Made by a program: the position numbers and the translations under genes
Notes under the pieces: generated by a model
Told to the model about the DNA's origin: nothing
The model's input: the letters and a program-made list of their open reading frames with translations, nothing else
Database searches by the model: none
Source of the DNA: Marinobacter salicampi
GTDB taxonomy: Bacteria; Pseudomonadota; Gammaproteobacteria; Pseudomonadales; Oleiphilaceae
Length of the DNA: 64,000 nucleotides
Reading direction: 5' to 3'
NCBI RefSeq assembly: GCF_011074795.1
Contig: NZ_JAAMPF010000026.1
Location: forward strand, 62,001 to 126,000
Part shown: positions 2,446 to 45,691 of the stretch, in pieces
How the letters are laid out: each line of letters starts with the position of its first letter
How positions within the stretch are numbered: position 1 is the first letter of the stretch

Positions 2446-3624
2446 TCATTTTTTCAGCGCTCTGATGTATTGCCTGAGTTCATGCCATGCCGGCATCACA
2501 TCATCCAGACGGTTAACTTCGTGCTTTTGATGACGGAGTCTAATGGAAAGAAAGCTAACCAGTCTCATAATCTTTTTCATCCAGGGCTGCCGCCCTTTCA
2601 GGTACAAGTAGAGACTGTCAAGGTCACCCAGCAGCCAGCGAAGCCGTTGATCGGTGCGATAGGTTTCGGTAGGAACGACCCGCTGGCCAAGCTGGGCCTT
2701 TGCCAGCATCAGGGGGAAGTCCACCCCGGAATCGATCGCCAATTGCAGGGATCCCCAGAACCGGGTGTTGATCTCCATGAGATAGGCCTTGCCTTCCGGC
2801 GTGATCCTGAACTCGACCATGGCGACCCCGTGCCAGTTCACTGCATCCAGCAGTTTCTGTGCGGTTGCCTTGAGCTCTTCGTCGGCAGCTACGCTCCGAC
2901 ACAGAACGCTGACGCCCCCTTCAGGCGGCTTCTCCCGCAGGCGCTCATGGGCAAAAAACTGCAGCGGCTGGCCTTTATTGTAAAGACAGAAAACACCGCC
3001 GCCATGGCCCGGAATAAACGACTGCAGCATGAACGGCGTCGTCTCAAGATAAGGGGAAAGCTCTAGCGCCTTCTGTAACCCGGCCGCATCATGAATAACC
3101 CTCACCTGGGTGTGTACCCAATCATCCCCCGTATAGATACGGGACAAGGCCGGCTTCAATACACACGGATAGTGGAGGGAAACACCTTCCAGTTCACTGG
3201 CATTTTTGAACATCCGGCTCTCTGGCACAGGAATGCCCAGGCTTTTAGCAAGCTCTACCAGTGAAATCTTGTCAGAAAGGGCCATAACGGTTTGATAGGG
3301 CGCAAACGGAAGCTCAATCCCTGGCAATTCATCCCGGCAAAACAGTAACAGCTGGCTGGTCACCTCAGTGGTGGGCATGACCAGATCGAAATGCTGGCGA
3401 GCGGTGAGGTCCTTCATCCAGGCGATAAAGTCGCGGGGGTGTTCGCCCGGGTCAGGGTGCTGGAGGTAGGCCTGACTGTAGCGGGACTGACCAGCAAGGG
3501 CCTGTACCGTGGCGTCCGCCGTGGTGATCTGGAATTGGCCGGATTTGCCAAGGGAGCGGGTAACCGCAAGAGCACTACGCTGATTGGCATCCAGAACCAG
3601 CACGCTGGGCAGATTAGAATCCAT
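2446..3624 (-). CDS. ATP-grasp domain protein (carboxylate-amine ligase-like)
   Basis: This 392-residue protein has an ATP-grasp layout: an N-terminal Rossmann-like preATP segment (SVLVLDANQRSALAVTRSLG), an ATP-binding lysine in YPCVLKPALSRIY, and the metal-binding E/N motif AYLMEINTRFWGSLQLA near residue 290. ATP-grasp enzymes join a carboxylate to an amine or thiol through an acyl phosphate. In a polysaccharide locus this suggests amide-linked decoration or synthesis of a precursor, but the substrate is not known. ATG with AGAGG upstream. It is divergent from the glycosyltransferase at 3741, so both promoters should lie in 3625-3740. It is probably the first gene of an operon with the downstream deacetylase. 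Confidence 0.8.
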   Translation of the reverse strand: MDSNLPSVLVLDANQRSALAVTRSLGKSGQFQITTADATVQALAGQSRYSQAYLQHPDPGEHPRDFIAWMKDLTARQHFDLVMPTTEVTSQLLLFCRDELPGIELPFAPYQTVMALSDKISLVELAKSLGIPVPESRMFKNASELEGVSLHYPCVLKPALSRIYTGDDWVHTQVRVIHDAAGLQKALELSPYLETTPFMLQSFIPGHGGGVFCLYNKGQPLQFFAHERLREKPPEGGVSVLCRSVAADEELKATAQKLLDAVNWHGVAMVEFRITPEGKAYLMEINTRFWGSLQLAIDSGVDFPLMLAKAQLGQRVVPTETYRTDQRLRWLLGDLDSLYLYLKGRQPWMKKIMRLVSFLSIRLRHQKHEVNRLDDVMPAWHELRQYIRALKK

Positions 3625-5410: not shown

Positions 5411-6709
5411 GTGTTTGCTGTATTAAAAAGTGATTTCAAAGAATTCCGGCAGGCCCTGAAAGGCCAGGATTTGATTTTCTATCTTGGCCTCGCCTTTATC
5501 GTTCTCTACTATTTGCGCCCCCAGGTGATCATTCCAGGCCTTGATATCATCCCCTGGATGCAGATCGTTATTCTGGTCGGCTTTCTGACCATGATCGGAA
5601 ATAACAGGCTCAAGTTCACAGGCACTCATTTCCTGGTGTTCCTGTTTGCGACCCTTGCCTGGCTGTCGGCGATGAATTCCCTCTACCCCCACATTTCCTC
5701 CAAGGACATAACCACGCCATTCATATTTGCCCTGGAGGTTCTGTTTCTTTCCAACTGCGTGAAAAACGTCAAGCAGTTACAGCTGCTGATGATCATCTTC
5801 TTTCTGTGCATTTTTAAAATGTCGTTTTTTGGCGCACGCGTCTGGGCAACCCGGGGTTTCGGCTTCACCGATTGGGGCATACAGGGCCCCCCAGGTTTCT
5901 TTCAGAACAGTGGTGAGTACAGCCTGTTGATGGCCTTATGCACGGTGATGTCGATCCCGCTTATCCTATATATGAAGCCGAAGACGAAGCTTTACTGGAT
6001 ACTGCCCGTCACCGCGGCTATGGCGGTGATGGGCGCCAGCTCGCGCGGCGGGCAACTGGCTCTGTTGGTGGGCCTCATTTACCTGCTGCTCGCGTACAGG
6101 AAAATAAGCTTCAAAAACCTTGCCTATGTTGCGGTGTTCGTAACTATTGCATGGGCGCTCTTTCCTGAAGAACAGAAAGCCCGCTTCCAGACCGCAGGCT
6201 CGGACCAGACGTCCACCACCCGCATAGATTATTGGGAGGCTGGGATAGAGATGGCCAAGGACTACCCGATACTTGGTGTTGGCTTCAGGTCTTTTCCGGA
6301 ACACTACCACAGGTACTTTAAGGTCAGCGACGGGAGCTATCTCTCGACCAGGAGGGAGGTGGCCCACAACTCTCTAATTGAGGTTGCGTCGACCTTAGGG
6401 ATACCAGCTCTGATTTTGTATGTCTGGTTCCACTTTTCTGTGTTTTCCAGCAGGTCGTTGGTAAAGAAGCACAAAGACCCGGGGCCGGAGCTTGAGTTCC
6501 TGGAAAGCTTCAGGGTTGCATTGAATGCCTCGGTCCTGACCTACTTTGTAGGGGCGATCTTCATGTCGATCACATTCTATCCCTACATCTATTTCCTCTT
6601 GGCTCTTGCGATTATCAAAATGCGGCTTTCAAGAGACAGGGAACGTGAAATTAAAGTGCAAAAGGGAGCATTCAGTGGCAGCGCCAAAGCCAAGGCCAAG
6701 GCCGTATGA
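5411..6709 (+). CDS. O-antigen ligase/polymerase-like membrane protein
   Basis: A 432-residue polytopic protein with about ten hydrophobic segments and a long periplasmic loop. The late motif HNSLIEVASTLGIPALILYV is the Wzy_C-type signature of O-antigen ligases and polymerases, and RGGQLALLVGLIYLLLAYR sits before the large loop. It probably polymerises or transfers the lipid-linked glycan on the periplasmic side; ligase and polymerase cannot be told apart from sequence. Exosortase A loci commonly carry a member of this family. The start is GTG, 3 bases after the phosphatase stop. The C-terminus is rich in Lys/Ala. Confidence 0.82.
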   Translation: MFAVLKSDFKEFRQALKGQDLIFYLGLAFIVLYYLRPQVIIPGLDIIPWMQIVILVGFLTMIGNNRLKFTGTHFLVFLFATLAWLSAMNSLYPHISSKDITTPFIFALEVLFLSNCVKNVKQLQLLMIIFFLCIFKMSFFGARVWATRGFGFTDWGIQGPPGFFQNSGEYSLLMALCTVMSIPLILYMKPKTKLYWILPVTAAMAVMGASSRGGQLALLVGLIYLLLAYRKISFKNLAYVAVFVTIAWALFPEEQKARFQTAGSDQTSTTRIDYWEAGIEMAKDYPILGVGFRSFPEHYHRYFKVSDGSYLSTRREVAHNSLIEVASTLGIPALILYVWFHFSVFSSRSLVKKHKDPGPELEFLESFRVALNASVLTYFVGAIFMSITFYPYIYFLLALAIIKMRLSRDREREIKVQKGAFSGSAKAKAKAV

Positions 6710-14344: not shown

Positions 14345-14943
14345 AAAACCGACTCAGGATCGGGTTGGGCGCACGGCACTGCGATGCTTTGGCAAAGAAG
14401 TTGTTTAGGGTGGCCACCAGACGGAATTGCTTTGATCGTGAAATAATGCCCTGAAGAGTGCCCGTCGGTGGGACCTCGGGCGCAATGTCCAGTAAAATGT
14501 CTTGAGATCGCTCGGCCAGTCGGAGCGGGTTCGGAGCCCGCTGGAATGGCTGACGGGTAGCGGACGCTGCTATATTGCCAGCGAAAAAGGGTGCTACAAG
14601 CCATTTCTGCTATTTGGGGTGCGTTCCAGGTGAGAGCCCCTCGGTGTGACGTACTCTCTAAAGTGGTCGTGAGGCCCGCCAAACAGGACTACGCTTAGCT
14701 CAACGATCTTCCTAGCGCGGTGGTAATCAAGCAAGTAGGTAGGAATCGTCCAGGGGCTATAATCGCAGTTACCCGCGCAGAGGACTGGAAACGAGCTCTC
14801 CTTAAAAGTACCGGTCGGCACTAGCTTAAGTAAAATAGGTGGTGTCTGCTTTAGGGGGCCAACGATAGGTGCTTTGTTTCCGTCTCAGTGTGACGCCGTT
14901 TCATTTAAGCTAGCCACCCGCTTAAAATTTTTAGAGATCTTTT
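14345..14943. other. gene-free gap, 599 bp
   Basis: This is the longest gap in the window, lying between the PEP-CTERM gene and the PP-loop gene, both on the plus strand. A small hairpin (agcggg at 14524-14529 with cccgct at 14537-14542) lies within it, without a T-tract. A minus-strand frame of 75 codons (14594-14821) is open but has no supporting ribosome-binding site or recognisable motif. It may be decayed accessory DNA. Confidence 0.4.
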
Positions 14944-17450: not shown

Positions 17451-18555
17451 AGCAGGTGTTTTGGCTGTTGGCAATTTCGATTCCAATACTGGATATGCGT
17501 GGAAGTTAATGGAGCGACTTTGGTGCGAGTTGTCGGTTTTTTTCCAAGCTAAAGCTTATCAGACCTATGTCGTTTTCCCCACGGTGTCCGAGATTCCTGA
17601 ATGTTTAACCGAGCATAATTGCATTGTCGAGCAAGAAGACTTTACCGCCCGCTCCTTAGGTCCGGTGATTCGCCAGGCACGCTACCTTCGAAAACGTTCG
17701 ATTAAGGTGCTCTACCTGACCGACCAGGAAACTAGCTCGTTTCGGTATCTCGTTTTCAGGTTATGTGGTGTTCGCAAGATCATCGTTCACGACCACACGC
17801 CCGGTGTTCGGACGCCCCCTGGTTCCGTAAAAAGATTACTAAAGCTCATTATCAACAGGCTTCCGTTGATCTCGTGCTCTGCATGTTTTGCGGTGAGCCC
17901 CTACGTCAAGCGGCGCCTTATTGAAATCAATTGTGTACCCCCTTCCAAAGTCTATTGTGTTACCAATGGCATCGACGTAACGGATGCTAAGCCGGAAGCG
18001 CGGAAGGAAGACGGGACTGTCAGAATCGTGACTGTGGGGCGGGCGTCTTATTACAAGGGTATCGACTTTTCCCTTAAGGTAATCCGGGCTCTGGTCTTTG
18101 AGCATGGGCGGCGGGATGTTCAGTACGCGTTATTTGGTGGCGGCCCAGACCTCGAAGCCTTTAAATTGCTTGCAAAGGATTTGGAGATTGAGCCTTTTGT
18201 AATTTTTCATGGGCCAGTTGATAACGTGGCTGAGAAACTGGGAACATCTGATATCGCTTTCCATCCCTCAAAGGGGGAGGCTATGTCTTTGGCTATCCTT
18301 GAATACATGCGGGCGGGCTTGCCGGTAGTGGCGTCGGATAACCCCTCTGTTAGTTCGGCGTTGACTGACGGTGAGGATGGGTTAATTTACAGGGAAGGAT
18401 CCGAAAGCAGTGCCACTGAGGTGCTGGTTCGTTTAATTCAATCCGAGTCGTTGCGTGATAGAATCGGGCAGTCTGCCAGAGCGAAGGTGGAGGGTGAGTT
18501 CTCAAGCAGTGCGATGGTCAAGCGTTTTATCGGAGCGCTAGATGACGTTATTTGA
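17440..18555 (+). CDS. glycosyltransferase family 4
   Basis: A 371-residue GT-B protein. The start is taken as GTG 17440 (or TTG 17443), because GGAGGG lies 5-8 bases upstream; the longer frame from 17416 is less likely. The N-terminus AGVLAVGNFDSNTGYAWKLM is unusual for GT4, but the C-terminal half is canonical: VTNGIDV, TVGRASYYKGIDF, and FHPSKGEAMSLAILEYMRAG with both glutamates of the E-x7-E motif. Probable role: a retaining transfer step in repeat-unit assembly. It overlaps the upstream GT2 gene. Confidence 0.85.
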   Translation: MLRKAGVLAVGNFDSNTGYAWKLMERLWCELSVFFQAKAYQTYVVFPTVSEIPECLTEHNCIVEQEDFTARSLGPVIRQARYLRKRSIKVLYLTDQETSSFRYLVFRLCGVRKIIVHDHTPGVRTPPGSVKRLLKLIINRLPLISCSACFAVSPYVKRRLIEINCVPPSKVYCVTNGIDVTDAKPEARKEDGTVRIVTVGRASYYKGIDFSLKVIRALVFEHGRRDVQYALFGGGPDLEAFKLLAKDLEIEPFVIFHGPVDNVAEKLGTSDIAFHPSKGEAMSLAILEYMRAGLPVVASDNPSVSSALTDGEDGLIYREGSESSATEVLVRLIQSESLRDRIGQSARAKVEGEFSSSAMVKRFIGALDDVI

Positions 18556-26745: not shown

Positions 26746-26951
26746 TTCAGTTGCTCTCCGTGAGCTTCATTCCGTCTTGGCGGAGCCGTCGTCCGTATCG
26801 TTATCGTGGTCGAGAATCCGGTAGATAGTGCCAGTTTGCGCTGCGTCTGTCACTGACTCTAGGGTCTTAATTAAATTGAAGCTTCGGTGCCGGTCACTTA
26901 CGGTGTCGTGTTAGAATTTCAATCCTTTTTGATCTGGCAAGGATGTTGGAA

Positions 26952-28103
26952 ATGCTGAAGTTGATTTTCTGGGTCGCGGCTATCGGCTCTGTGTACAGCT
27001 ACTTTATCTATCCCCTCATATTAAGTTTCTTGCCCCGCAAACGGACGTTGCCAGCCGCTATTGGTGATAACAGGGAGGTGCCTGCCAATGACACCAGACC
27101 AAAGCTTTCGTTGATTATTACCGCTCACAATGAAGCCAAGCGTATCCGCGATAAACTCGAGAATACCCTGAAGGTGGAATACGAGCCCCTTGAGATTATT
27201 GTCGCCTCGGATGCCTCCGCGGATGAAACAGACGAGATTGTCAGGGAATACGCAGGCCGTGGCGTTATCCTGTCGCGAACCGAGGACCGGCTGGGCAAAG
27301 AGAACGCCCAGAAAGACGCTATCGCCAAAGCCAGCGGCGACATCGTCGTGTTTTCTGATGTGGCCACCAGTATCCCGCCGGATGCCCTCAATGCACTTGT
27401 TCGCTATTTCGACAACCCGACCGTTGGCGCTGTTTCCAGTGAGGATGTGTTTGTCAGCCGCGACGGCGGCGTGGTGGGCGAGGGCGCCTACGTCAAATAC
27501 GAGATGTGGCTGAGAAAGCTCGAGTCGCTGCGGGGCGGGCTTGTGGGCCTGAGCGGCTCCTTTTTCGCGGTTCGCCGGGAGCTCTGCCAGCGCTGGGACA
27601 TTCATTCCCCGAGCGACTTCAATTCAGCCCTTAATTGCGCAAGGGAGGGCTACGTCGCGGTTTCGGCGCCGGATGTGCTCGGCCACTACCAGGATGTGGC
27701 AGACTCGTCCAAGGAGTACCAGCGGAAGCTTCGGACGGTTATCAGGGGTCTGACGGCCCTGGCGCGGCACCCCGAGGTGCTGAACCCGACGAAGTTTGGC
27801 CTGTTCTCTTTCCAGGTATTCAGTCATAAACTGATGCGCTGGGCGGTGCCCTGGTTCCTGATCGTGCTGCTGGTCACCACGGTAGCTCTGGCCGATGAAG
27901 GGGCCCTGTACCGGCTGGCGTTGGTTCTGCAGTTCCTGTTCTATGGCACTGTGCTTGTGGCCCATCTTTCACCGTCAGTGCAAAAAAGAGCCTTCGCGCG
28001 GATTCCCTATTTCTTCGTACAGGTGAACTACGCCATTGCCCATGCAACCATTCAGTTCCTGCGCGGTCGCAGGATGACTGTCTGGTCGCCCTCTCAGCGA
28101 TAG
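26952..28103 (+). CDS. membrane glycosyltransferase family 2
   Basis: A 383-residue protein. ATG 26952 is preferred to 26943 because AAGGA (26939-26943) then has an 8-base spacing. One N-terminal helix, a GT-A domain with LSLIITAHNEAKRIRDKLEN, VASDASADETDEI and VFSDVATSIPPDAL, the acceptor-side VGLSGSFFAVRRELC block, and C-terminal helices. It ends in WSPSQR. The architecture is that of processive or cellulose-synthase-like GT2 enzymes, but the Q-x-x-R-W element is replaced by FSHKLMRWAVPW. It is a clear paralogue of 42903-44024. It is followed after 9 bases by the DegT-like gene. Confidence 0.85.
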   Translation: MLKLIFWVAAIGSVYSYFIYPLILSFLPRKRTLPAAIGDNREVPANDTRPKLSLIITAHNEAKRIRDKLENTLKVEYEPLEIIVASDASADETDEIVREYAGRGVILSRTEDRLGKENAQKDAIAKASGDIVVFSDVATSIPPDALNALVRYFDNPTVGAVSSEDVFVSRDGGVVGEGAYVKYEMWLRKLESLRGGLVGLSGSFFAVRRELCQRWDIHSPSDFNSALNCAREGYVAVSAPDVLGHYQDVADSSKEYQRKLRTVIRGLTALARHPEVLNPTKFGLFSFQVFSHKLMRWAVPWFLIVLLVTTVALADEGALYRLALVLQFLFYGTVLVAHLSPSVQKRAFARIPYFFVQVNYAIAHATIQFLRGRRMTVWSPSQR

Positions 28104-33277: not shown

Positions 33278-35983
33278 TCAGATCTTCTGCAGGACGGCTT
33301 TTGCCTTCGCCTCTTCACCCGCCGCTTTGTAGGCGTCTACCAGGTGCATGGCAATTTCTTCAGACTGAGGCTCAAGTTCATGGGCTTTTTCCAGCACGGT
33401 GATGCTCTCGGCCTGCTGACCCATCTTGAACAGAATCCAGCCGTAGGTATCCGCAATGGCGGCCGACTCAGGGCTGAGCTCATAGGCGCGTTTGGCCAGT
33501 TCAAGGGCGCGGTCATCATCGCCTTCGTGGTAGATCCACGCCAGGTTGTTCAGGGCCACTACATTATTGGCTTCGGTCCTCAGTAGCGCCTCGTAGGCTT
33601 CGGCCGCCTCGTCATCATTACCAGCGCTCTGGTGAGCAAGGGCAAGGGCGAGGCTTATCTGGGGCTGGTTGGGGGACGCCTCATGAGCCTCTTCCAGTAC
33701 CTCTACTGCCTTGTTTGGCTGCTCTGCCCGTTGCAGTGCCTGGGCATAGCGCAGGAGGGTGCTGGGGCTGCGCTGTTTTTCCAGGGCCAGCTGATAGTTC
33801 TCCACCGCTTCCTTGTGGCGGCCTTGCTCGGTCAGGTAGGCCGCTTCCAGCAGGAAGGGGCGGGGAGAATCCGGCTGGGCCTTCTTGGCTTCCTGGAGGC
33901 GATCCCGGCCGTCCGATTCGCGATCCGACCGGAACGCCAGCGAGGCTGACTGCAGCATCACGTCTTCGTTATTCGGAAAGAGGGCACGGGCCCGTTTGAG
34001 AATGGCCTGGGCCTGGTCGAACTCCTCGGCTCTCATTTTCTGTCCGGCCACGTTGTTGTAGACACTGGCCACAGCAGGCGCGAGCTCGGAAGGCTCATCT
34101 GGATCGGAGGTTTCCAGCAGCTTCGCGGTCTGGTTATCAGCGCTGCCGGTGTCGCCATTGGTCAGGGCATATTCCAGCAGAATGAGGCGGGGGCCGGTCA
34201 CCGCTTCATTGTTCTCGACAATGTCGCCAAGGAAACCGGCGGTTTCGTCCCGTCCCAGGGTGTTGGCCAGGCCCTGCAGTGCCTGGCGATTGTCGGGCGC
34301 GAGTTTTACAGCTGCCTTGTAATGGCTGGCGGCTTCATCAGTATTGTCCTGGCTGCGGGCGAGGTTGGCCAGGGCAATACGGGGCCTGGGGTCATCCTGG
34401 TCGGCAGCCGCCGCTTCTTCAAAATAGCGTTTGGCGTCGGCGGGGTCTTCCATGCGCATGGCCAGTTCACCCCTGGCCAGCTTCGGCTGTGCTTCGTCGG
34501 GCTTTTCCTTGACCCATGCGTTCGCCGATTCCACAGCGGCATTGGTGTCACCGCTGGCAATATGGGCCTGGATCATGAGAACCCGGGCATCGGTCGAATC
34601 CGGGTCCCGCTCCATCACCTGCTGGGCCTGTTCGATGGCCTGGTCAGTCTCACCTTCCTGCACCAGATAGCGGGCAAAGCGGATACGCAGGGAATTGTTG
34701 TCCGGCGCCATTTCCAGGGATCTTCTGATCAGTTCTTCACCGGCCTGCTTGTCGCCGCCGGCCAGGGTGGCGATACCCACCAGTGCAAGCACGCCCGGGT
34801 CGCTGTCCTTGTCTTCCAGGTTGTCGAGTATACGGCGGGCTTCATCCGGATCCCGAAGCTGTATACGGGCCGCCGCCAACAGCTTGGAGGCAGCCTCGGA
34901 GTCTTCGGCTTCAGCCAGGGGTCCGAGCAGTCGGGCGGCCTCTTCGGTACGACCCTGGCGGAACCGGATCATGCCGAGCATAAGTGCGCTTTGCTCGTGG
35001 CTCGGTGACTGGGCCAGCACCTCGTTCAGGTAGCGGGCTGCCAGGTTCAGGTCGCCATCGTTGTAGGCAGACTGGGCAGCCACCAGATTGCTCTTGATGG
35101 TTCCAGGCGCGGACTTGGCCAGTATTTCTTCATACACAAACGCTTCAGACGCCTTGCCCTGTTCCCTGAGAACCCTTACCAGTGCCGAGATGGTCTCGTA
35201 CTTGCGGTAGGTCATGACATCGAACTGGCCAATATCTTCCAGAGCCTGGATATACGCCTCTTCGGCTTGCCCCCATTGTTCGTTGGAATGGGCGAGCTGA
35301 GCCCGCCACAGCCAGAGCTCTGCTTCGGACTCGTCGATCTCCTTGGCTTCTTCGATCAGCGCCTGGGCCTGCTCCATGTCGCCGCGGGTATAGGCTACGC
35401 GGGACAGACCTATGAGCGGGTCAACCGATCCGCCATCCAGCTCGCGGGCGCGGTTATAGGCCAGTTCCGCCTCATCCAGGCGTCTGGCCGTAAGCAGGGC
35501 ATCACCCCGGACAAGCGCTGCCTCGATCTCCTGGGAGCGGTCCGGATCCTTGATCTTGTCGAGGTGGGCAAGGGCTTCGTCAGTATTGCCCCGCAGACGG
35601 TTGGCCTTGGCCCGGATCAGGTTCATCCGGTTGTTGATGGTGTCTGTTCTGACCTCATCGGTCATGATTTCCTCGAGCATATCGACCTGACGCTCGGCGT
35701 TCACCGCATCACCCGCTGTGAGCAGGTTATTGATTATGACAAAGTACGGGTCGGCATTGGCGGGTTGCAGGTCTATGGCGCTGCGTGCCTCCAGGGTGCT
35801 CGCCCTGAGCTCGCCCTGACGCTGGAAGAACCGGGACTGGTCCAGGTGACTCATATACTGGATTTCGTCCTGGCTCATGTTGTCTTCGTCACCACAACCA
35901 ACGAGCGCAACACTGATCGCAACAGAGAGTAAAGCTGCGCGGGCGAATGGCAGTGACTTCATGACGCTGTTACTTGGTTTCAC
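33278..35983 (-). CDS. prsT: XrtA/PEP-CTERM system TPR lipoprotein PrsT
   Basis: A 901-residue protein. GTG 35983 is preferred because AAGGAAGG lies 8 bases upstream; the longer frame to 36013 lacks this. A lipobox VALVGC follows a basic N-terminus and hydrophobic core (SLPFARAALLSVAISVALVGC). The rest is a long array of tetratricopeptide-like helical pairs, strongly acidic and alanine-rich, of the kind known as PrsT in exosortase A loci. It is likely an outer-membrane lipoprotein scaffold for polysaccharide assembly or export. It ends at a strong terminator. It follows prsR at a 43-bp gap, same strand. Confidence 0.9.
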   Translation of the reverse strand: MKPSNSVMKSLPFARAALLSVAISVALVGCGDEDNMSQDEIQYMSHLDQSRFFQRQGELRASTLEARSAIDLQPANADPYFVIINNLLTAGDAVNAERQVDMLEEIMTDEVRTDTINNRMNLIRAKANRLRGNTDEALAHLDKIKDPDRSQEIEAALVRGDALLTARRLDEAELAYNRARELDGGSVDPLIGLSRVAYTRGDMEQAQALIEEAKEIDESEAELWLWRAQLAHSNEQWGQAEEAYIQALEDIGQFDVMTYRKYETISALVRVLREQGKASEAFVYEEILAKSAPGTIKSNLVAAQSAYNDGDLNLAARYLNEVLAQSPSHEQSALMLGMIRFRQGRTEEAARLLGPLAEAEDSEAASKLLAAARIQLRDPDEARRILDNLEDKDSDPGVLALVGIATLAGGDKQAGEELIRRSLEMAPDNNSLRIRFARYLVQEGETDQAIEQAQQVMERDPDSTDARVLMIQAHIASGDTNAAVESANAWVKEKPDEAQPKLARGELAMRMEDPADAKRYFEEAAAADQDDPRPRIALANLARSQDNTDEAASHYKAAVKLAPDNRQALQGLANTLGRDETAGFLGDIVENNEAVTGPRLILLEYALTNGDTGSADNQTAKLLETSDPDEPSELAPAVASVYNNVAGQKMRAEEFDQAQAILKRARALFPNNEDVMLQSASLAFRSDRESDGRDRLQEAKKAQPDSPRPFLLEAAYLTEQGRHKEAVENYQLALEKQRSPSTLLRYAQALQRAEQPNKAVEVLEEAHEASPNQPQISLALALAHQSAGNDDEAAEAYEALLRTEANNVVALNNLAWIYHEGDDDRALELAKRAYELSPESAAIADTYGWILFKMGQQAESITVLEKAHELEPQSEEIAMHLVDAYKAAGEEAKAKAVLQKI

Positions 35984-36026
35984 GTTGTTAACCTTCCTTA
36001 AATCCGGTTGCACTGAAATGCCTCGC

Positions 36027-37403
36027 TCACACGCTGGAGGGTTCAGACGAGGTCTCTATGTTGTATTTGTCCGTGAGGTTATACAGAGTCGGCCTTGTAA
36101 TGCCCAGCAGACGGGCAGCCTGGGCCATGTTGAAGCCGCTGGTCTGCAGGGCCTGGGTAATGGCCTGGCTCTCGGCGGTTTCCCGCACCTGGCGCAGGTT
36201 GAGCTGGGTGTTGGAGAGCGTGGTCTTGTCGCACTCAAGCTCCAGGTCATCGGCGCCAATGCGCTTGCCATCCACCATGATAATGGCGCGCTTGACCTTG
36301 TTGATCATCTCACGCACGTTGCCGGGCCAGGGGTATTGGCTGATGGCTGCCACCGCGTCCTCGGCAAAGCTCAGATTCGGGCGGTCCATCTGCTTGCCCA
36401 AACTCTTCAGCAGGGAGTTGGCAATCACCAGGGCGTCGCCGTCGCGATCCCGCAGGGCGGGTACGTCAAGGGTGATTTCGCTGATCCGGTAATAAAGGTC
36501 TTCCCGGAAGTCGCCTTTTTCGATCAATTGCTTCACTTCCCGGTGGGTTGCGCAGACCACCCGCACGTCAACCGCAACCGGCTGGACGCTGCCAACACGA
36601 TCGACCACTCGCTCCTGCAGGAAACGAAGCAGCTTGGACTGCAGCGCCATGGGCATGTCACCGATTTCATCGAGGAAAAGCGTGCCCCCGTTGGCGGTTT
36701 CAATCTTGCCCTTCTTGCTCTGGGTGGCGCCCGTGAAGGCGCCTTTTTCATAGCCAAACAGCTCGCTTTCCAGCAGATTCTCGGGAATCGCGGCGCAGTT
36801 AATGGCGGCGAACGGCTTGCTGGCGCGATGGCTCAGGTCGTGCAATGCCCGGGCCAGCAGTTCCTTGCCGGTGCCGGTTTCCCCGGTGATCAGTGTGGTG
36901 ACATCCGCAGGCGCGACTTTCTCGAGAGTCCGGCACACGGTCATCATCTGGGGGCTGGCCGCCACAATACCCTTGATGGAGGTGCCGTTGGGCTGATTGG
37001 TGAGTTCGCGGTTCTCGCGCTCAAGCTCGGACAGGCGCAAGGCGCGGTTGACTACGAAGGTAAGAATGTCCGCATCCAGCGGCTTCTGGTAAAAGTCGCT
37101 GGCGCCCATGCCAATGGCCTTGACCGCGTTTTCCTTGTCTTCCCGGCCAGTCACCACGATGACTTTCGTCTGGGGTGCCAGGCGCAGAATATCTTCCAGC
37201 AGGGCAAAGCCCTGGCTGGCGCCGCCCGGGTCCGGGGGCAGGCCAAGGTCAAGTGTCACGACATCAGGTTCCATCCGCCGCAATGCGGCCAGGGCTGAAT
37301 CCCGGTCGTTGGCCAGGCCAATTTCCAGTTCATCACTGAAACACCAACGCATCTGGCTTTGCAGTCCTGGGTCGTCCTCAACGATTAAAAGTCGTTTACT
37401 CAC
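36027..37403 (-). CDS. prsR: XrtA/PEP-CTERM system sigma-54 response regulator PrsR
   Basis: A 458-residue NtrC-type regulator from GTG 37403 (MSKRLLIVEDD); the longer frame to 37457 adds an unlike N-terminus. The receiver domain has acidic residues at 9-11 and the phospho-acceptor Asp52 (VTLDLGLPP). The AAA+ domain has Walker A GETGTGKE, and GAFTGA, the loop that contacts sigma-54. A Fis-type helix-turn-helix closes the protein (MAQAARLLGITRPTLYNL). It should activate sigma-54 promoters of the locus when phosphorylated by PrsK. Probable operon prsK-prsR-prsT. Confidence 0.92.
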   Translation of the reverse strand: MSKRLLIVEDDPGLQSQMRWCFSDELEIGLANDRDSALAALRRMEPDVVTLDLGLPPDPGGASQGFALLEDILRLAPQTKVIVVTGREDKENAVKAIGMGASDFYQKPLDADILTFVVNRALRLSELERENRELTNQPNGTSIKGIVAASPQMMTVCRTLEKVAPADVTTLITGETGTGKELLARALHDLSHRASKPFAAINCAAIPENLLESELFGYEKGAFTGATQSKKGKIETANGGTLFLDEIGDMPMALQSKLLRFLQERVVDRVGSVQPVAVDVRVVCATHREVKQLIEKGDFREDLYYRISEITLDVPALRDRDGDALVIANSLLKSLGKQMDRPNLSFAEDAVAAISQYPWPGNVREMINKVKRAIIMVDGKRIGADDLELECDKTTLSNTQLNLRQVRETAESQAITQALQTSGFNMAQAARLLGITRPTLYNLTDKYNIETSSEPSSV

Positions 37404-37545
37404 AGCAGGGCCAAATCCTTTTTTAATTGTCGGCCGGCAGTTGTGCCGGAAGTCCATCTTATGTCGTATTTAAGTATGGTCTAGATTTTTCACTGATCAT
37501 TGACGCATTGCAATGCCAGCACATCGGTAATTTGAAAAACGCCAA

Positions 37546-39708
37546 TCATTTGTCATCGCCGGTCTGTATTGCGCCTGGCACCGGCTCAGTAACCGTAAGC
37601 TCCGCAGCCTTTTCGCTTCTGGATTGCCGGGCTTCAATCCGCTCCGGGTCGGGTTGGAATATAGGGACGCGAACCGAAAAACAGGAACCCACGCCTGGTT
37701 CGCTGGTCACATCAATATTGCCGCCGATCTTGCGCAGGTATTCGCGGGCCTGGTAAGCACCGATCCCCATGCCTGTCAGACCCTTGGTGCTTTCGAACGG
37801 CTTGAAGAGCCGGGTCTTGATGAAATCCTCGTTCATGCCTGAGCCGTTATCCTGGATAAACAGAACGACGTTGCCACTGGCAGTTTTCATCGTCAAGGTC
37901 ACATCGCCTTCCGGCGAGGTGGCATCCTGGGCATTCTGGATCAGGTGTCCCAGCACGCTCCGTAACTGCTCGGGATCGGCGGCCACCAGGACCGGGTCCG
38001 TGGGACCTTCTACCACAGGGGCAGGACGATGACGCCCATAATGGGCTGCCAGTTCCGAAATCAGTCCATAAAGATCAATCGGCTTGACCTCGAAGGTGTC
38101 TTCCACCGGCTTGCGAATGTGGTCCACGAGGTTGGCCATTTTCTGTACCGCATGGTCTGTAGTGCGGATCATGTCGTCGATGAAGGCCGGGTTATCCCTG
38201 TGCTTGGGCGCGTTGCGGACGAGCAGCGAGAGCTGGGCGATCAGGGTCTTCAGGTCGTGCACCATAAACGCTGACGCCTTGCTCACGGCTTCGAACTGCA
38301 TGGCCCGGGAAAGACGGTTCTGGGCATCGGCCTGGGCCAGCAGGTTGGAGGTCTGCCTTGCCACCACCCGCACCAGGTCAAAGTTTTCCCAGTTCAGCTC
38401 TACCTTGGCGTAGGGGTTGCCCACCAGGGCGATGCCGTACAGGCTGTCGCCAAGGTACATGGGAATCACCAGCCATCCATCAGCGAACTTGAGCACCGCG
38501 TCGGGTATTTCCACTAAATTGTAACTGATGGGGTCGACCCGGTACTCGTGCAGGTCAATAATCCATTCCCGCTCACCGAAAAAACGCACCAGTTCGCACT
38601 TGCCATCGATGGAAGTGTATTTGGGCGGCGCCATGTTAACGGCCGTGTTAAGGGCGTAATTGCCGTCCTCATCGCGAATCCAGATCACCCCCGAGTTGCT
38701 TTCCACCAGGCCCGCCAGTATCCGCACAACCCGTTCCGGCAGGGGCGGGTCGTCGCTCAGGTTGGCGAACACCTGGGTCATCTTCAGCCATTCATCGCGG
38801 TAATCGTATTTGTAATCGAAAAAGTTCTGGCTGATGAACATCATCAGCTTGACCCGGAACCGGGTTGAGGTCAGCAGCATCGCCAGAAATGCCAGCAGCA
38901 CGGTGAAGAATAGCACTTGGAGCGCATCCCCCCATTCGCCCCCCAGCACGCGGACGTAATAGCCACCGGCGGCGGCAAACAGCATGTAGGCGCCGGCAAA
39001 AACGAAGGTGCCAACGTGGAATACCGCATTCCGGGACAGCTGGAAGTCTACCGGCTGGCGCCGGGTATTGATCATGTTGACCGCAAACAGCGGCACCACC
39101 AGGGCGTTCACCGCTCCGCGGGCATTCCAGAACGAGCTGGATATCTGCCCGAACAGAAGCGCATCGGCGTACATCAGAAAGTCAAAGATGAAGATGGTGG
39201 CGATGCCGATACAGGTGTACTTGACGCTGGAGCGCCCGAACGACATCGAGTTACGCCATATCTGTTCAACCAGGCAGATGCCAAGCAGCGTCAGGGCAAT
39301 CTGGCCTATCACCTTGGTTTTGCCGCTGAGTATCTGCCAGCCCAGCAGATACTCGAGTACGCCACTCAGCAGCAAGCCGGTAACAAGCACGATGGCGGTA
39401 GTGCCCAATATACCCTGGGTGCGGCCGGCAAGTTCGGAGTTGCGGGCACCGTCGCGAATCAATGCGAATACAACGGTGATCCAGGCCGCGTCCCGGAGCA
39501 GTTCAATAACATAACGAAGGAAGAAGGGAGGCTGGCTCCACAGGTTCTGGGTAACCAGGGAAGTCGCCCACAGAACTGACACCAGAGACGCCAGGAACAG
39601 GGCCCGATCAGCCTCCCGCCGCAGGTACTTCCTTGCGATCAACAGTGCCAGCAGAAGAAACGTCAGGGCTGCTGCCGAGTGACTGATCAGGCTGAAATCT
39701 GTAACCAT
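37546..39708 (-). CDS. prsK: XrtA/PEP-CTERM system sensor histidine kinase PrsK
   Basis: A 720-residue kinase. About eight N-terminal membrane helices (residues 1-290) are followed by a GAF-like domain (about 310-450), then the dimerisation/phospho-acceptor block FMVHDLKTLIAQLS with His484, and a HATPase domain with N box LIQNAQDAT, G1 DNGSGM and G2 GMGIGAY. It is the membrane sensor partner of PrsR. The signal is unknown. ATG start. The stop is 142 bp before prsR, the only sizeable gap in the prsKRT run. Confidence 0.92.
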   Translation of the reverse strand: MVTDFSLISHSAAALTFLLLALLIARKYLRREADRALFLASLVSVLWATSLVTQNLWSQPPFFLRYVIELLRDAAWITVVFALIRDGARNSELAGRTQGILGTTAIVLVTGLLLSGVLEYLLGWQILSGKTKVIGQIALTLLGICLVEQIWRNSMSFGRSSVKYTCIGIATIFIFDFLMYADALLFGQISSSFWNARGAVNALVVPLFAVNMINTRRQPVDFQLSRNAVFHVGTFVFAGAYMLFAAAGGYYVRVLGGEWGDALQVLFFTVLLAFLAMLLTSTRFRVKLMMFISQNFFDYKYDYRDEWLKMTQVFANLSDDPPLPERVVRILAGLVESNSGVIWIRDEDGNYALNTAVNMAPPKYTSIDGKCELVRFFGEREWIIDLHEYRVDPISYNLVEIPDAVLKFADGWLVIPMYLGDSLYGIALVGNPYAKVELNWENFDLVRVVARQTSNLLAQADAQNRLSRAMQFEAVSKASAFMVHDLKTLIAQLSLLVRNAPKHRDNPAFIDDMIRTTDHAVQKMANLVDHIRKPVEDTFEVKPIDLYGLISELAAHYGRHRPAPVVEGPTDPVLVAADPEQLRSVLGHLIQNAQDATSPEGDVTLTMKTASGNVVLFIQDNGSGMNEDFIKTRLFKPFESTKGLTGMGIGAYQAREYLRKIGGNIDVTSEPGVGSCFSVRVPIFQPDPERIEARQSRSEKAAELTVTEPVPGAIQTGDDK

Positions 39709-41675: not shown

Positions 41676-42569
41676 TCAGCCCCGGCGGAGCATCAATGCC
41701 AGGGTATGGCTTTGGCCGCTATTTAATACCTGATAGTCATTGCCTGCATTGGCAGTCTCGACACACAGCATGGTCCGCCAGGCCTGATCGGGAAAGTCCG
41801 TCAAACGTCGCGCCTTGGCAGGACCCGGGTTCCATACCACGGTTGAGTCGCTGCCGGCGGAACCCAGCAGGCGCAGCCTGGCCGGTGTGGCAATGCGCAG
41901 GTCGCCGCCGGATTCGTAGATCCGGTCGGTTTCGCCTTCGAACCGGACCGGACCTTTCTGCACTTTCGACTGCCAGCCATCCAGGGTGTCGATGTAGGTG
42001 GCGCCATCCAGCCCGCGAATTCGAGTATCGCTGATATCGGGGGTCGGGAAATAGCTGTGCAGCGCCTCGGTGAAGGCGAGAGCCTCCCGGTCGGCGTTTG
42101 AGGTGGTCAGCGCCAGTTGGCAGCCCTCTGCCGAGAAGCTGAAGGTCAGTAGCGCACGGGCGCGGCCCTGCCAGAGGTCTTCGAAATCGGTGTCCGCATC
42201 CAGGGACAGGCTGATTTCAATCTCATGAGCAGTTTCACGGACATCCTCCAGTTTCCACACAGCGGTGCGGGCGAACCCATGGGCGCTGTCCGTCAGAATC
42301 CGCCGCCGCACTTCCGGCGGGTTGCGGGCCGGGTCCCCAAACCAGGGCCAGCAAACCGGAATGCCACCGCGAATAGCCCGCCCGGTTTCGTAGCGCGCGG
42401 TTTCGCTCACCCAAAGCCAGCCCGGCTCCCCGACAGGGCCAAACTGGGTCAGATGAGCCCCCTGCAGAAACAGCCGGGCGCCAAACAAAGGGTGGTGGAC
42501 TTCAAGGGCTTCAAGCTGACCAATGGTGACCCATCGGGTAAACGACCACTGGCCTGGGGTGATGGGCAA
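41676..42569 (-). CDS. D-hexose-6-phosphate mutarotase (YeaD-like)
   Basis: A 297-residue aldose-1-epimerase-fold protein. Conserved elements are the substrate block RGGIPVCWPWFGDP (about 67-80), HGFARTAVWKLED (about 92-104), the catalytic-His region EALHSYFPTPD and VWNPGPAKARRLTDFPD. It interconverts alpha and beta anomers of glucose-6-phosphate or related sugars in the cytoplasm. The start is TTG 42569 with AGAGGTG 4-5 bases upstream; no closer ATG exists. The 49-bp repeat copy 1 lies 42 bp upstream and may overlap its promoter. Confidence 0.82.
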   Translation of the reverse strand: MPITPGQWSFTRWVTIGQLEALEVHHPLFGARLFLQGAHLTQFGPVGEPGWLWVSETARYETGRAIRGGIPVCWPWFGDPARNPPEVRRRILTDSAHGFARTAVWKLEDVRETAHEIEISLSLDADTDFEDLWQGRARALLTFSFSAEGCQLALTTSNADREALAFTEALHSYFPTPDISDTRIRGLDGATYIDTLDGWQSKVQKGPVRFEGETDRIYESGGDLRIATPARLRLLGSAGSDSTVVWNPGPAKARRLTDFPDQAWRTMLCVETANAGNDYQVLNSGQSHTLALMLRRG

Positions 42570-42902
42570 GATGCACCTCTGAATTATGCGTAGCGTTAGT
42601 GGATAGAGCTTACGGGTATATCGGTATCTTTAGCGCAAAATGAACGCGTGCGTCCAGTGAGACGAAATGCTGTATTTCCTTTATAAGCCTCTTCTACCAC
42701 ACCGACTACCGGTTTTCGCTAATAGTGAAATAAAAATATACATGTCACTCGAAAAACCGCAATGACAAGCTACACTGCCCTTATTGTGTTGGCTCGCTCG
42801 TAAGTCTTTCGTTCGCAAAAATAGTGCAAAATGCATCTAAAAGCTACGAACACGTGACCGAAGATGTTGGCAACCAGGTTTAAAAGAATTTAGAGGCACG
42901 AA
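42570..42902. other. AT-rich gap, 333 bp, before the two-gene cassette
   Basis: It holds repeat copy 1 (42611-42659) and then an AT-rich stretch up to the GT2 start. No coding frame is convincing. The promoters of the mutarotase (minus) and of the GT2 (plus) should be in it. Confidence 0.45.
42611..42659 (+). repeat. 49-bp direct repeat, copy 1
   Basis: It begins tacgggtatatcggtatc and ends gcgtgcgtccagtg. It is identical to the copy at 44838-44886 except for three bases (positions 13, 31 and 39 of the repeat). The sequences on either side are unrelated. The pair brackets the GT2 and dioxygenase genes. Confidence 0.93.
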
Positions 42903-44024
42903 ATGGAAGTCTACAGTAAGTCTGCTGCCATGTTGGCCATATATACCATTTTCGTATATCCATTCTTATTATGGATCATCGGCTCCGTTTATAGTTATAG
43001 AGAAAAAAGAAGTTACCTCACGAATAACGCCGAGCCTACCGTCACTGTTATTGTCGCTGTTCATAATGCTGAGTCTGCCATCGAAGCCAAGATAGAAAAC
43101 CTAACGAACAATAACTATGATCCGGCAAAAATAGATTACCTATTTGTTGATGATGGGTGTACAGACGGTACTGTCGCTATCATTCAATCGAATCCATTAG
43201 TAAATTTAATATCTCTTCCAATTCGTCAGGGGAAGGAGAGAGCACTGGCTCAGGGAATTGCTGAAGCTAAAGGCGAGATTTTGATTTTCACCGACGTCGA
43301 CACATTATCTGACTCATGCGCTGTGAGTAAGCTTGTTCGCCACTTTGAAGATCCCTACATTGGGGCTGTCAGTTCTTATGATATTGTCGATTACCCGCAA
43401 TATTCTCTGAAATACTGGTACATCATTTACGAAATGTATTTGCGAAGTCTTGAGTCGAAACTAGGATGTTCAGTGGGCGTGAGCGGTTCACTTTTTGCCA
43501 CAAGAAAGATACTTTGTGAAGAGTTTAATGCCGGTTCCTGCTCTGATCTGGAAATAACAATAATTTGCGCTCGGGAAAAGCTCGGTGTGATCACTGATAG
43601 AGCCGTTAAAGCGGTATACAAGAAATCCAATACAGCATCAGGCGAGCTTAGCAGAACAAGGCGGACGATGGCGCATGGGATATTTACCGTGATAAACAAC
43701 TATAATATATTAAATCCTTATTATGGTGGCTTGTACTCATGGCAGATATTCAGTCACAAGATTCTTCGTTGGCTTTTGCCTTACCTCATTTTGGCAGCTA
43801 TAGTTTCTGGCGCGATCACAACTGTCGCGGCTATGAGTTATTATGTCGTGCCGGTAACGATAGTTTCGGCTATCTTGGCATATACGTTCGTAGGTTTAAA
43901 TGTGCGAAGAGCAATAAATGAAAACATTTGCTGTTTTCTTATGGCCATTTTTTCTGTTTCCCTAGCGATCGTCACCGTGGTCAGAAATAAAGAGATCGGT
44001 GCCTGGTCGCCAACAAAAAGATAA
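42903..44024 (+). CDS. membrane glycosyltransferase family 2 (cassette gene)
   Basis: A 373-residue paralogue of the protein at 26952-28103. It has the same plan: N-terminal helix (IYTIFVYPFLLWIIGSVYS), GT-A domain with TVIVAVHNAESAIEAKIEN and FVDDGCTDGT, IFTDVDTLSD as DxD, SVGVSGSLFATRKILC, FSHKILRWLLPYL, and the same WSPTKR ending. Codon use is much more AT-rich than that of the paralogue, which points to a different origin. ATG with AGAGG upstream. It is the first of two genes between the 49-bp repeats. Substrate unknown. Confidence 0.85.
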   Translation: MEVYSKSAAMLAIYTIFVYPFLLWIIGSVYSYREKRSYLTNNAEPTVTVIVAVHNAESAIEAKIENLTNNNYDPAKIDYLFVDDGCTDGTVAIIQSNPLVNLISLPIRQGKERALAQGIAEAKGEILIFTDVDTLSDSCAVSKLVRHFEDPYIGAVSSYDIVDYPQYSLKYWYIIYEMYLRSLESKLGCSVGVSGSLFATRKILCEEFNAGSCSDLEITIICAREKLGVITDRAVKAVYKKSNTASGELSRTRRTMAHGIFTVINNYNILNPYYGGLYSWQIFSHKILRWLLPYLILAAIVSGAITTVAAMSYYVVPVTIVSAILAYTFVGLNVRRAINENICCFLMAIFSVSLAIVTVVRNKEIGAWSPTKR

Positions 44025-44040
44025 CTAAGGGTGAGATTAA

Positions 44041-44814
44041 ATGCACGCTAGAGCAGACGATCTATCGATAAAAGAAACGCTCTTCCAGAACGGTGTACTA
44101 CACCTCTCTGAAGCCCTTCCATCTCATCATCTTTTAAATGCAAGAGCGTCAATTGATGAACTGTTCAAGTTGCCTGAGAAGGAGGCTCTTCCGGTTGAAC
44201 CATGCGCACAGCCAGAAGAGGTTAGAGGCTCGCTCGTCATTGAGAGGAACCATTTGCTAAAAGAATACCCTGGTTTAGCTAAGAGCGAAATTGTTCAGGC
44301 CTGTCAGAAAATTGCTACCCGTCTGCTGGGACGCAGTGCGTTTGTTTCTTTTGACCACGCTATCTATAAGTGGCCAGGCGGAGGAATGGTGGAATGGCAC
44401 CAGGATCAAGCCTATAAAAGTTCGGTGAAATCGATGAAGAGCGTTCATTTTTGGATACCGCTCCATGATTTTGATGAGTGCAACGGGTGTATGCAGTATG
44501 TTTCCGGTTCTAATAGTGTTGGTTTGTTAAAACATGCTGTTCGCGCGAATTCAGGAGCGTTATTTCTTGACCATGACAAAGAGTGGAAGCGCAACGTCAC
44601 GGTAGTGGAGGGGAAACTAGGCGATATAATTGTTCATCTTCCCGGTACTATTCACAGCAGTTTGCCCAACAACTCTGATTCTATAAGAAAGGCATGGATC
44701 ATTCACTTCAGTCCGTTTGGCTATTATGAACCCTTGCTGCCGATTAATATTGTCTTCAACTTCATGTCAAGAATAAAAAAATATTTAGGGTTGGAAAGAA
44801 ATAAGTCAGATTGA
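44041..44814 (+). CDS. phytanoyl-CoA dioxygenase (PhyH) family protein (cassette gene)
   Basis: A 257-residue Fe(II)/2-oxoglutarate oxygenase of the PhyH type. The metal triad is visible as VEWHQDQAY (H-x-D, about residues 119-121) and LPGTIHSSLPNNS (His near 204), and the 2OG-binding Arg is probably in SIRKAWIIHFSPFG. GCMQYVSGSN is the family loop. It should hydroxylate a small molecule or a lipid-linked sugar. The gene begins 16 bp after the GT2 gene with AAGGGTGAG upstream, so the pair is an operon. A role on the same glycan as the GT2 is inferred from context. Confidence 0.82.
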   Translation: MHARADDLSIKETLFQNGVLHLSEALPSHHLLNARASIDELFKLPEKEALPVEPCAQPEEVRGSLVIERNHLLKEYPGLAKSEIVQACQKIATRLLGRSAFVSFDHAIYKWPGGGMVEWHQDQAYKSSVKSMKSVHFWIPLHDFDECNGCMQYVSGSNSVGLLKHAVRANSGALFLDHDKEWKRNVTVVEGKLGDIIVHLPGTIHSSLPNNSDSIRKAWIIHFSPFGYYEPLLPINIVFNFMSRIKKYLGLERNKSD

Positions 44815-44837
44815 GGTTCTTGTGCGTGGCGACGTTT

Positions 44838-44886
44838 TACGGGTATATCCGTATCTTTAGCGCAAAACGAACGCGCGCGTCCAGTG
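44838..44886 (+). repeat. 49-bp direct repeat, copy 2
   Basis: It begins tacgggtatatccgtatc and ends gcgcgcgtccagtg. It matches copy 1 at 42611-42659 in 46 of 49 positions, same orientation, 2,227 bp apart start to start. It lies 23 bp after the cassette's dioxygenase gene and about 175 bp before the next oxygenase. Confidence 0.93.
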
Positions 44887-45061
44887 CGGAATACAGCTAG
44901 ACTCCCAAGAATAAGTGCCATCCATCCGCTACGGGAGCAAGGTATTGGACGCAACCGTACTTTTTTCATTTGGCCTGCCTCCTGGCTATCGCGCCACTGC
45001 CTGTCGTCCACCGAATTCAGAGCTTTCAAGGCAAAAACTCTTCGAATCGTTACTAGACACC

Positions 45062-45691
45062 ATGACGGTGGAGCTGGCCGAGTGTGGTTGGTCTTCGCTG
45101 GATGCCAGGGCGTGGCTGACGCCACAATTGCTGGCTGAGCTACAGGCTGAAGTATCGGCACTGCATGAGGCAGACGCCATGGCGATTGCCGGCGTTGGCC
45201 GCGGACTGGGCCATACCCATGACAAATCTGTGAGACGGGATCGGATTGCCTGGCTCAAGGGTGACAGCGCGCCGCAGAAGGCGTTGTTTGAATGTCTTGA
45301 GGGCGTCAGGCGAGGGTTGAACGAGCGCGCCTTTCTCGGTCTGAGGCGATTTGAGGCTCACTACGCCACCTATGAGGCCGGGGATTTCTACAAGCGTCAC
45401 CTTGACAGTTTCCGGGGCCGGGCATCCCGGGTGGTCAGCCTGGTGCTGTACCTTAACGAAGGCTGGCAGGCACAGGACGGCGGCGTTTTGCAGGTATATA
45501 ACCGCGAATCCTCCAATGAGCTATGCGGAACGGTGTTGCCCGAAGCCGGCCGGATGGTGGTTTTCATGAGCGAGGAGGTCCCCCACGAGGTGATTACAGC
45601 CCAGCGTACCCGCTACAGTCTCGCCTGCTGGTTCCGGTGCGATGAAGTTCCTTTTCCGATTGGGATTGATGCCACCGGTCCTGCCTGCTAA
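45062..45691 (+). CDS. 2OG-Fe(II) oxygenase family protein
   Basis: A 209-residue protein from ATG 45062. The frame is open back to 44915, and a TTG at 44945 has GGGAG upstream, but those extra residues look unlike the family. The metal triad is FYKRHLDSF (H-x-D) and EVPHEVITAQ (His), with the 2OG arginine probably in RYSLACWFR. The fold is that of SM-20/prolyl-hydroxylase-like oxygenases. Its substrate is unknown. No ribosome-binding site is obvious for the chosen start. Its TAA stop lies inside the -10 box of the ffs promoter. Confidence 0.78.
   Translation: MTVELAECGWSSLDARAWLTPQLLAELQAEVSALHEADAMAIAGVGRGLGHTHDKSVRRDRIAWLKGDSAPQKALFECLEGVRRGLNERAFLGLRRFEAHYATYEAGDFYKRHLDSFRGRASRVVSLVLYLNEGWQAQDGGVLQVYNRESSNELCGTVLPEAGRMVVFMSEEVPHEVITAQRTRYSLACWFRCDEVPFPIGIDATGPAC

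Follow-up and report, generated by a model that had tools for sequence, protein, structure and literature searches.

A glycosyltransferase-dioxygenase gene pair inserted between 50-nt direct repeats in Marinobacter salicampi, a likely case of long target duplication

Insertion with long target duplication is said to have been described by Nobusato et al. in 2000 for the restriction-modification genes of Helicobacter pylori. That work is cited for long target duplication in the available excerpts of several other papers (PMC1643837, PMC3874152, PMC4978471, PMC3031569, PMC3154945, and PMC2869330); the published lengths of such duplications are called variable in these excerpts, and the one from PMC3874152 puts them on the order of 100 bp. 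CIMEs and decayed IMEs, as portrayed in the accessible part of PMC5704250, carry their cargo between direct repeats of 8 to 60 bp, which take in a portion of a gene region, and have lost their integration and transfer genes. In Arabidopsis, transposed non-transposon genes are framed by direct repeats that are homologous to the orthologous empty site, according to the available text of PMC2869330.

The locus analyzed here consists of a GT2-family glycosyltransferase gene and a PhyH-type dioxygenase gene that lie between two long direct repeats in the genome of Marinobacter salicampi (Table 1; the window is the whole analyzed stretch of 64,000 nucleotides). As in insertion with long target duplication, the genes have been inserted without a recognized transposase, and a long host sequence that is single in the reference is directly repeated around the insert; the anatomy otherwise fits, with flanks shown to be native only in part. 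Unlike in that system, the cargo is a polysaccharide-type GT2-PhyH pair rather than a restriction-modification system (an association that is frequent there but not obligatory), the repeats are 50 and, in Marinobacter guineae, 31 nt long versus the order of 100 bp, and the comparison is between species, not strains. The 50-nt repeats fall in the size range of the attL and attR repeats of CIMEs, but the target here is intergenic DNA of weak conservation that precedes a gene, and no integrase relic was found in 10 of the 15 short open reading frames of the insert's left arm (a CIME may itself be devoid of an integrase gene). The locus is also unlike an insertion sequence (IS) or transposon in that no transposase was found among the two genes and these 10 reading frames and the repeat is 50 nt long instead of a short target duplication, which for ISs is ∼2 to 14 bp. 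The likeness to the transposed Arabidopsis genes is that the flanking direct repeats match the empty target site; that case, in contrast, concerns a plant nuclear genome, for which circles from tandem repeats have been proposed (PMC2869330, available text). Among the papers listed by the literature searches, in which most subscription journals were not covered, none describes this locus in its title or the beginning of its abstract.

Table 1. Features of the cassette and of the junction that contains it (positions in the 64-kb window)
Feature	Coordinates	Strand	Remarks
Aldose-1-epimerase (mutarotase) family gene	41676..42569	-	PF01263; native left neighbor
Left repeat copy	42610..42659	+	50 nt; 40 nt from the native mutarotase gene
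Inserted DNA	42660..44836	+	2177 nt; 42.7% GC
GT2 glycosyltransferase gene	42903..44024	+	373 aa; PF00535, 2.4e-21
PhyH-type dioxygenase gene	44041..44814	+	257 aa; PF05721, 1.3e-20
Right repeat copy	44837..44886	+	Native position, before the 2OG oxygenase
Putative -10 box TAGACT of the oxygenase	44898..44903	+	11 nt after the right copy
2OG-Fe(II) oxygenase gene	44945..45691	+	2OG-FeII_Oxy_3, PF13640; native right neighbor

The first-pass annotation of this DNA had described two 49-base copies with 46 identical bases in the same orientation, bracketing the GT2 and PhyH-type genes. The repeat is real and is one base longer: its copies, spaced by 2227 nt, agree in 47 of 50 positions, differ at repeat positions 14, 32, and 40, and have the two Pfam families between them. 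That the sequences beside each copy differ was likewise borne out, as the identity beyond the two repeat edges falls to 3/10 and 4/10, 9/20 and 8/20, and 12/40 and 12/40. The repeat pattern has two matches in the window, compared to a mean of 0.00 in 100 dinucleotide shuffles, and the 50-nt pair is the only direct repeat found in a scan of the window for repeats of at least 28 nt with copies within 12 kb (seed 13). In a control scan of five stretches of other genomes, one repeat family each was seen in loci L088, L089, and L092, and none in L090 or L091. The L088 family is the 31-nt repeat of M. guineae discussed below, and the L092 family is 33 nt long with 73% identity. Further along the M. 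guineae region, L089 carries a 105-nt direct repeat with 82% identity (positions 3225 to 3329 and 5706 to 5810).

The 49-mer had also been proposed as a query to show whether other cassettes use the same site, and its scattering through the genome had been named as an opposing outcome. Neither a BLAST search with 121 nt nor a pattern search allowing up to 3 mismatches found a third copy in the M. salicampi genome, and a scattered extragenic repeat was therefore rejected. Integron attC sites contain the arm motifs RYYYAAC and GTTRRRY; such arms were not seen by eye in the repeat, and this assignment was rejected. A dif-like Xer site was also rejected by eye. No inverted repeat above the shuffled background was detected in the right copy (P = 0.86), the left copy (P = 0.41), or the M. 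guineae 31-mer (P = 0.14), which is weak evidence; recombination cores can be weak.

The two native neighbors of the cassette form a common junction in the genus. The mutarotase is encoded in 111 of the 124 Marinobacter genomes (E values up to 1e-60), and in 99 of the 124, including M. salicampi, it is a divergent neighbor of the 2OG oxygenase, the junction being counted if the two genes pointed away from each other, at most 20 kb apart, on a single contig. They are separated by 127 to 698 bp (median, 268) in all 98 other genomes and by 2346 bp in M. salicampi; these lengths are accurate to ∼150 bp because the matches begin at different residues. Among the remaining 12 mutarotase-encoding genomes, 7 have no match to the oxygenase, and in 5 the match is confined to a different contig. 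In two genomes (G008, locus L095, and G061, locus L096), the mutarotase gene is followed by what we take to be a dnaX homologue, with no oxygenase match in between and an apparent loss of the oxygenase. In another Marinobacter genome (L107, G147:C94:56800-57800), the mutarotase-oxygenase intergenic region contains a few hundred base pairs of extra DNA, whose ends are, by eye, near inverted repeats, GGAGCCTCTGATTAACTCC ... GGAGTTGATCAGAGGCTCC; by the same inspection, this DNA looks like a MITE. In M. salicampi, the listed oxygenase open reading frame (ORF) starts at 44915, in frame with the TTG at 44945; judged by a by-eye alignment with a TTG in G140, the latter is most likely the start. A bacterial small SRP RNA (RF00169; 45739 to 45835) is found ∼50 nt after the oxygenase gene.

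Single copies of the repeat are found at the same junction in many of the relatives. Matches to the right copy were scored in 29 junctions, one genome per species, with 200 shuffles each; 27 of them were read from 29 mutarotase loci, two of which have no oxygenase match, and the other two come from G140 and G141. One copy was recognized in 14 of the 29 junctions at P values up to 0.01 and in 22 at P values up to 0.05, with the best matches in G070, G140, G025, and G141 (38, 36, 35, and 31 of 50, respectively). None of the 29 contains a second copy, the best nonoverlapping second match being at most 25 of 50. G006, one of the closest relatives as judged by the mutarotase, has no recognizable copy (22 of 50, P = 0.55); the P value also exceeds 0.05 in six further junctions. 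The G006 junction (L094), which lacks a recognizable 50-mer, is also longer, at 448 bp. Inspection of the relatives' junctions for a single copy without the cassette had been suggested in the first-pass annotation, with the presence of both repeats and the cassette in all relatives as the opposing outcome. Relatives without the cassette were found, in agreement with the suggestion that one ancestral copy stood between the two genes and that the cassette was inserted with duplication of the site.

The insertion is thus the derived state, and the repeat is host sequence, part of the region upstream of the oxygenase gene; both statements follow from the short gaps and single copies in the relatives. 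Conserved native genes lie outside the two copies, at a distance of 40 nt on the left and ∼60 nt on the right, and the insert-side flanks of the repeats have no match in any of the four relatives tested. A reading in which both noncoding outer flanks were clearly matched was dropped: the stronger left-flank scores had included 40 nt of mutarotase coding sequence, and after these bases were removed, each flank is significant in only one of five relatives, the left one (40 nt outside the left copy) in G140 (P = 0.004) and the right one (20 nt outside the right copy) in G070 (P = 0.002). The right copy agrees with G070, G025, G140, and G141 at repeat position 14, and positions 32 and 40 are ambiguous. 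A previous claim, by which the right copy would have the ancestral base at each of the three differences, was given up, since it holds only for position 14 once G140 and G141 are included. The hexamer after the right copy is predicted to be a promoter element of the oxygenase gene; in an alignment of six relatives it reads TAGACT in G070 and G025 and TAAAAT in G138, G156, G007, and G109, and in G140, which is outside this alignment, no clear -10 box is visible by eye. The repeat is taken to belong to the upstream control region of the oxygenase.

These observations can be explained if a foreign GT2-PhyH pair entered between the mutarotase and the 2OG oxygenase genes and, as a result, 50 nt from upstream of the oxygenase came to flank it on either side. 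That the cassette was inserted at this place and the site duplicated is very probable, an estimate that was lowered slightly because the matches of the outer flanks are thin. The whole explanation, insertion with long target duplication, is rated as somewhat better than an even bet. According to it, the second copy would have been made from resident DNA during the insertion and not carried in by the element. In the relatives scored, the similarity of this upstream DNA does not exceed 76%, so that a second copy with 94% identity most likely came from the DNA of the same lineage; a copy from another species would be expected at the relatives' level (38 of 50 at best), as opposed to the 3 differences in 50 positions that are seen. 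Possible routes would include the fill-in of widely staggered ends or a template switch as a DNA break captures incoming DNA. The duplication would leave the oxygenase's own upstream region intact, and the insertion might thus cost little.

The insert is much more AT-rich than its surroundings, as the first-pass annotation had noted: its GC content (Table 1) compares with 58.5% at 36.0 to 42.6 kb and 59.0% at 44.9 to 64.0 kb of the window. A foreign, AT-rich origin of the cassette is part of the preferred explanation. The AT-richness is not confined to the insert, however, and is also seen at 8 to 23 kb (44.8% GC), in a region that is not far from the prsT, prsR, and prsK genes and is taken for a polysaccharide cluster. 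These three XrtA/PEP-CTERM genes, recognized as NCBIfam equivalogs, are on the minus strand at 33281 to 39708. In the PhyH-type protein, His120, Asp122, and His205, presumably the Fe(II)-binding triad, are invariant in an alignment of three sequences. To judge from the gene families and the neighboring XrtA/PEP-CTERM genes alone, the pair probably modifies an exopolysaccharide. A second GT2 gene (26943 to 28100), whose product is ∼32% identical to the cassette GT2, has an M. guineae homologue with 63% identity. The insert was searched for relics through the short ORFs of the 243-nt left arm that precedes the GT2 gene (the right arm is 22 nt long); 10 of these 15 ORFs had no Pfam match at E values up to 0.1, no integrase relic was found among them at that threshold, and no transposase was detected, the genes being those of the GT2 and PhyH proteins. 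A promoter scan gave 4 hits compared to 4.6 expected and lends no support to a promoter.

Related GT2-PhyH pairs are encoded, at different loci, in 2 of the 123 other genomes of the genus (G109 and G007). PhyH relatives as such occur in 3 of the 123, the third being a weak match in G026 (26% identity) with no GT2 match in its 3.65-kb locus. In M. guineae M3B (G109, L088, NZ_KZ319339.1), the GT2 and PhyH proteins are 39% and 46 to 48% identical, respectively, to those of the cassette, and the pair sits inside the XrtA/PEP-CTERM region, between a prsT homologue and the next gene. On either side of it stands one copy of a perfect 31-nt direct repeat (L088 positions 14664 to 14694 and 18305 to 18335). 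The copies enclose 3.6 kb, and no other direct repeat of 28 nt or more was found along these 20 kb. The 31-mer is a candidate for a duplicated target, with an empty site that is unreadable in relatives, as the right flank matches only G109 and the matches of the prsT end in other genomes stop short of the repeat. The right arm of this insert contains the relic of an IS66 C-terminal element (Pfam, 5.3e-9), and the first 112 nt of its left arm match DNA near a contig end of G009 (81%). By eye, this left arm (L088 14695 to 15342) looks like an IS1380-type element in decay. The G007 pair (L090) is located between tRNA-Met and an IS relic with an rve_3 domain (8.2e-18), next to frame-shifted, integrase-like pieces in two frames that were recognized by eye; one of these pieces had no Pfam match at E values up to 0.1. 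No direct repeat of at least 20 nt was found around this pair, and the closest counterpart to the 25 nt that end tRNA-Met matches only 15 of 25 positions. The G007 pair looks like an integrase-borne island.

Judged by sequence, the GT2-PhyH pair can be regarded as accessory and mobile in a broad sense, because two of the three cases have long locus-specific repeats and the third looks integrase-borne. Further relatives are few. Profile matches at E values up to 1e-25 were obtained in 2 of 390 genomes of the order (M. salicampi and G109) and in 1 of 369 genomes of the class (M. salicampi), and a scan of genome contigs returned three loci, in M. guineae (48%), a Granulosicoccaceae metagenome-assembled genome (MAG) (34%), and an Actinomycetota MAG (33%), the latter two with no GT2 match in the stretch examined. 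Viral contigs yielded 37 pattern matches, none of them a relative of the cassette; phages gave no match to it, and 15 plasmid records with 26 to 33% identity contributed little or nothing relevant.

The main rival to target duplication, ranked second and considered unlikely, is that the cassette is the stripped, CIME-like remnant of a site-specific integrative element, an IME or a genomic island, whose attL and attR sites would be the 50-mers, whose attachment site would be the oxygenase upstream region, and whose tyrosine recombinase would be lost or act in trans. Repeats of 50 and 31 nt are within the 8- to 60-bp range of att repeats, and integration at gene 5' ends has been documented, if less often (both in the accessible part of PMC5704250). 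For the G007 pair, the nearby tRNA-Met and integrase-like remains favor a recombinase origin at that locus, and an element with a tyrosine recombinase that already circulated in the species could also give ends with 94% identity. Such an element, however, would need an attP that matches 47 of 50 positions of fast-evolving intergenic DNA and hence must have resided before at this very site in this species. The lack of inverted repeats, weak evidence as it is, the lack of Pfam matches in 10 of the 15 left-arm ORFs, and the unmatched integrase-like piece in G007 argue against it as well. The 31-mer and the 50-mer show no similarity beyond that of shuffled sequences (P = 0.94 and 0.97), and a common attachment site is therefore unlikely; the suggestion that the 49-mer is a recurrent landing site is likewise disfavored by the unrelated repeat that frames the M. 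guineae pair. Whether different targets were duplicated can be asked of one other bracketed case only, in which the repeat is unrelated to the 50-mer, no direct repeat of at least 20 nt having been found around the third pair.

The same repeat-insert-repeat anatomy would result from a single crossover (Campbell type) if a circle bearing both the pair and a 50-mer, and derived from the same species, recombined with the chromosome, and a circle model has been put forward for the transposed Arabidopsis genes with flanking repeats (PMC2869330, available text). It would require a donor in which the pair already stood beside the oxygenase upstream region; no third 50-mer was found in the genome and neither of the other pairs in the genus is at this junction, which makes this route quite improbable. 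Repeat-mediated deletion that leaves one copy behind is described in the available text of PMC3119063, but an ancestral cassette lost many times in this way is hardly credible, as it needs losses in the lineages of the 98 other genomes with short junctions, and a second copy is present in 0 of the 29 scored ones. Capture by a composite IS with later loss of the ISs, which the IS relics beside the M. guineae (IS66) and G007 (rve_3) pairs might suggest, can be practically dismissed, given a repeat far longer than usual IS target duplications and the lack of Pfam matches in 10 of the 15 left-arm ORFs.

Under the preferred explanation, insertion with long target duplication, a bolder proposal can be made, which we consider improbable: the pair might be a transposase-free mobile unit that repeatedly enters Marinobacter genomes by copying tens of bases of the target site, and the bases copied here might supply the pair with one half of a promoter of the host. 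What lies upstream of the -10 box is retained in the left copy, and by eye, TGTATT is found at the same 11-nt spacing (42671 to 42676). If this proposal is true, a sugar-modifying pair could be controlled by the regulator of the oxygenase as soon as it arrives.

Gene insertions that lack a transposase and are surrounded by long target duplications are already known; in the available excerpts of the literature, they are cited for restriction-modification genes, mainly in H. pylori. If two Marinobacter species carry related polysaccharide-type pairs, each framed by a long repeat unrelated to the other, this pattern would be extended to other cargo and another group of bacteria. With a small locus and 98 relatives that have short junctions, insertion, excision, and promoter sharing should all be amenable to testing.
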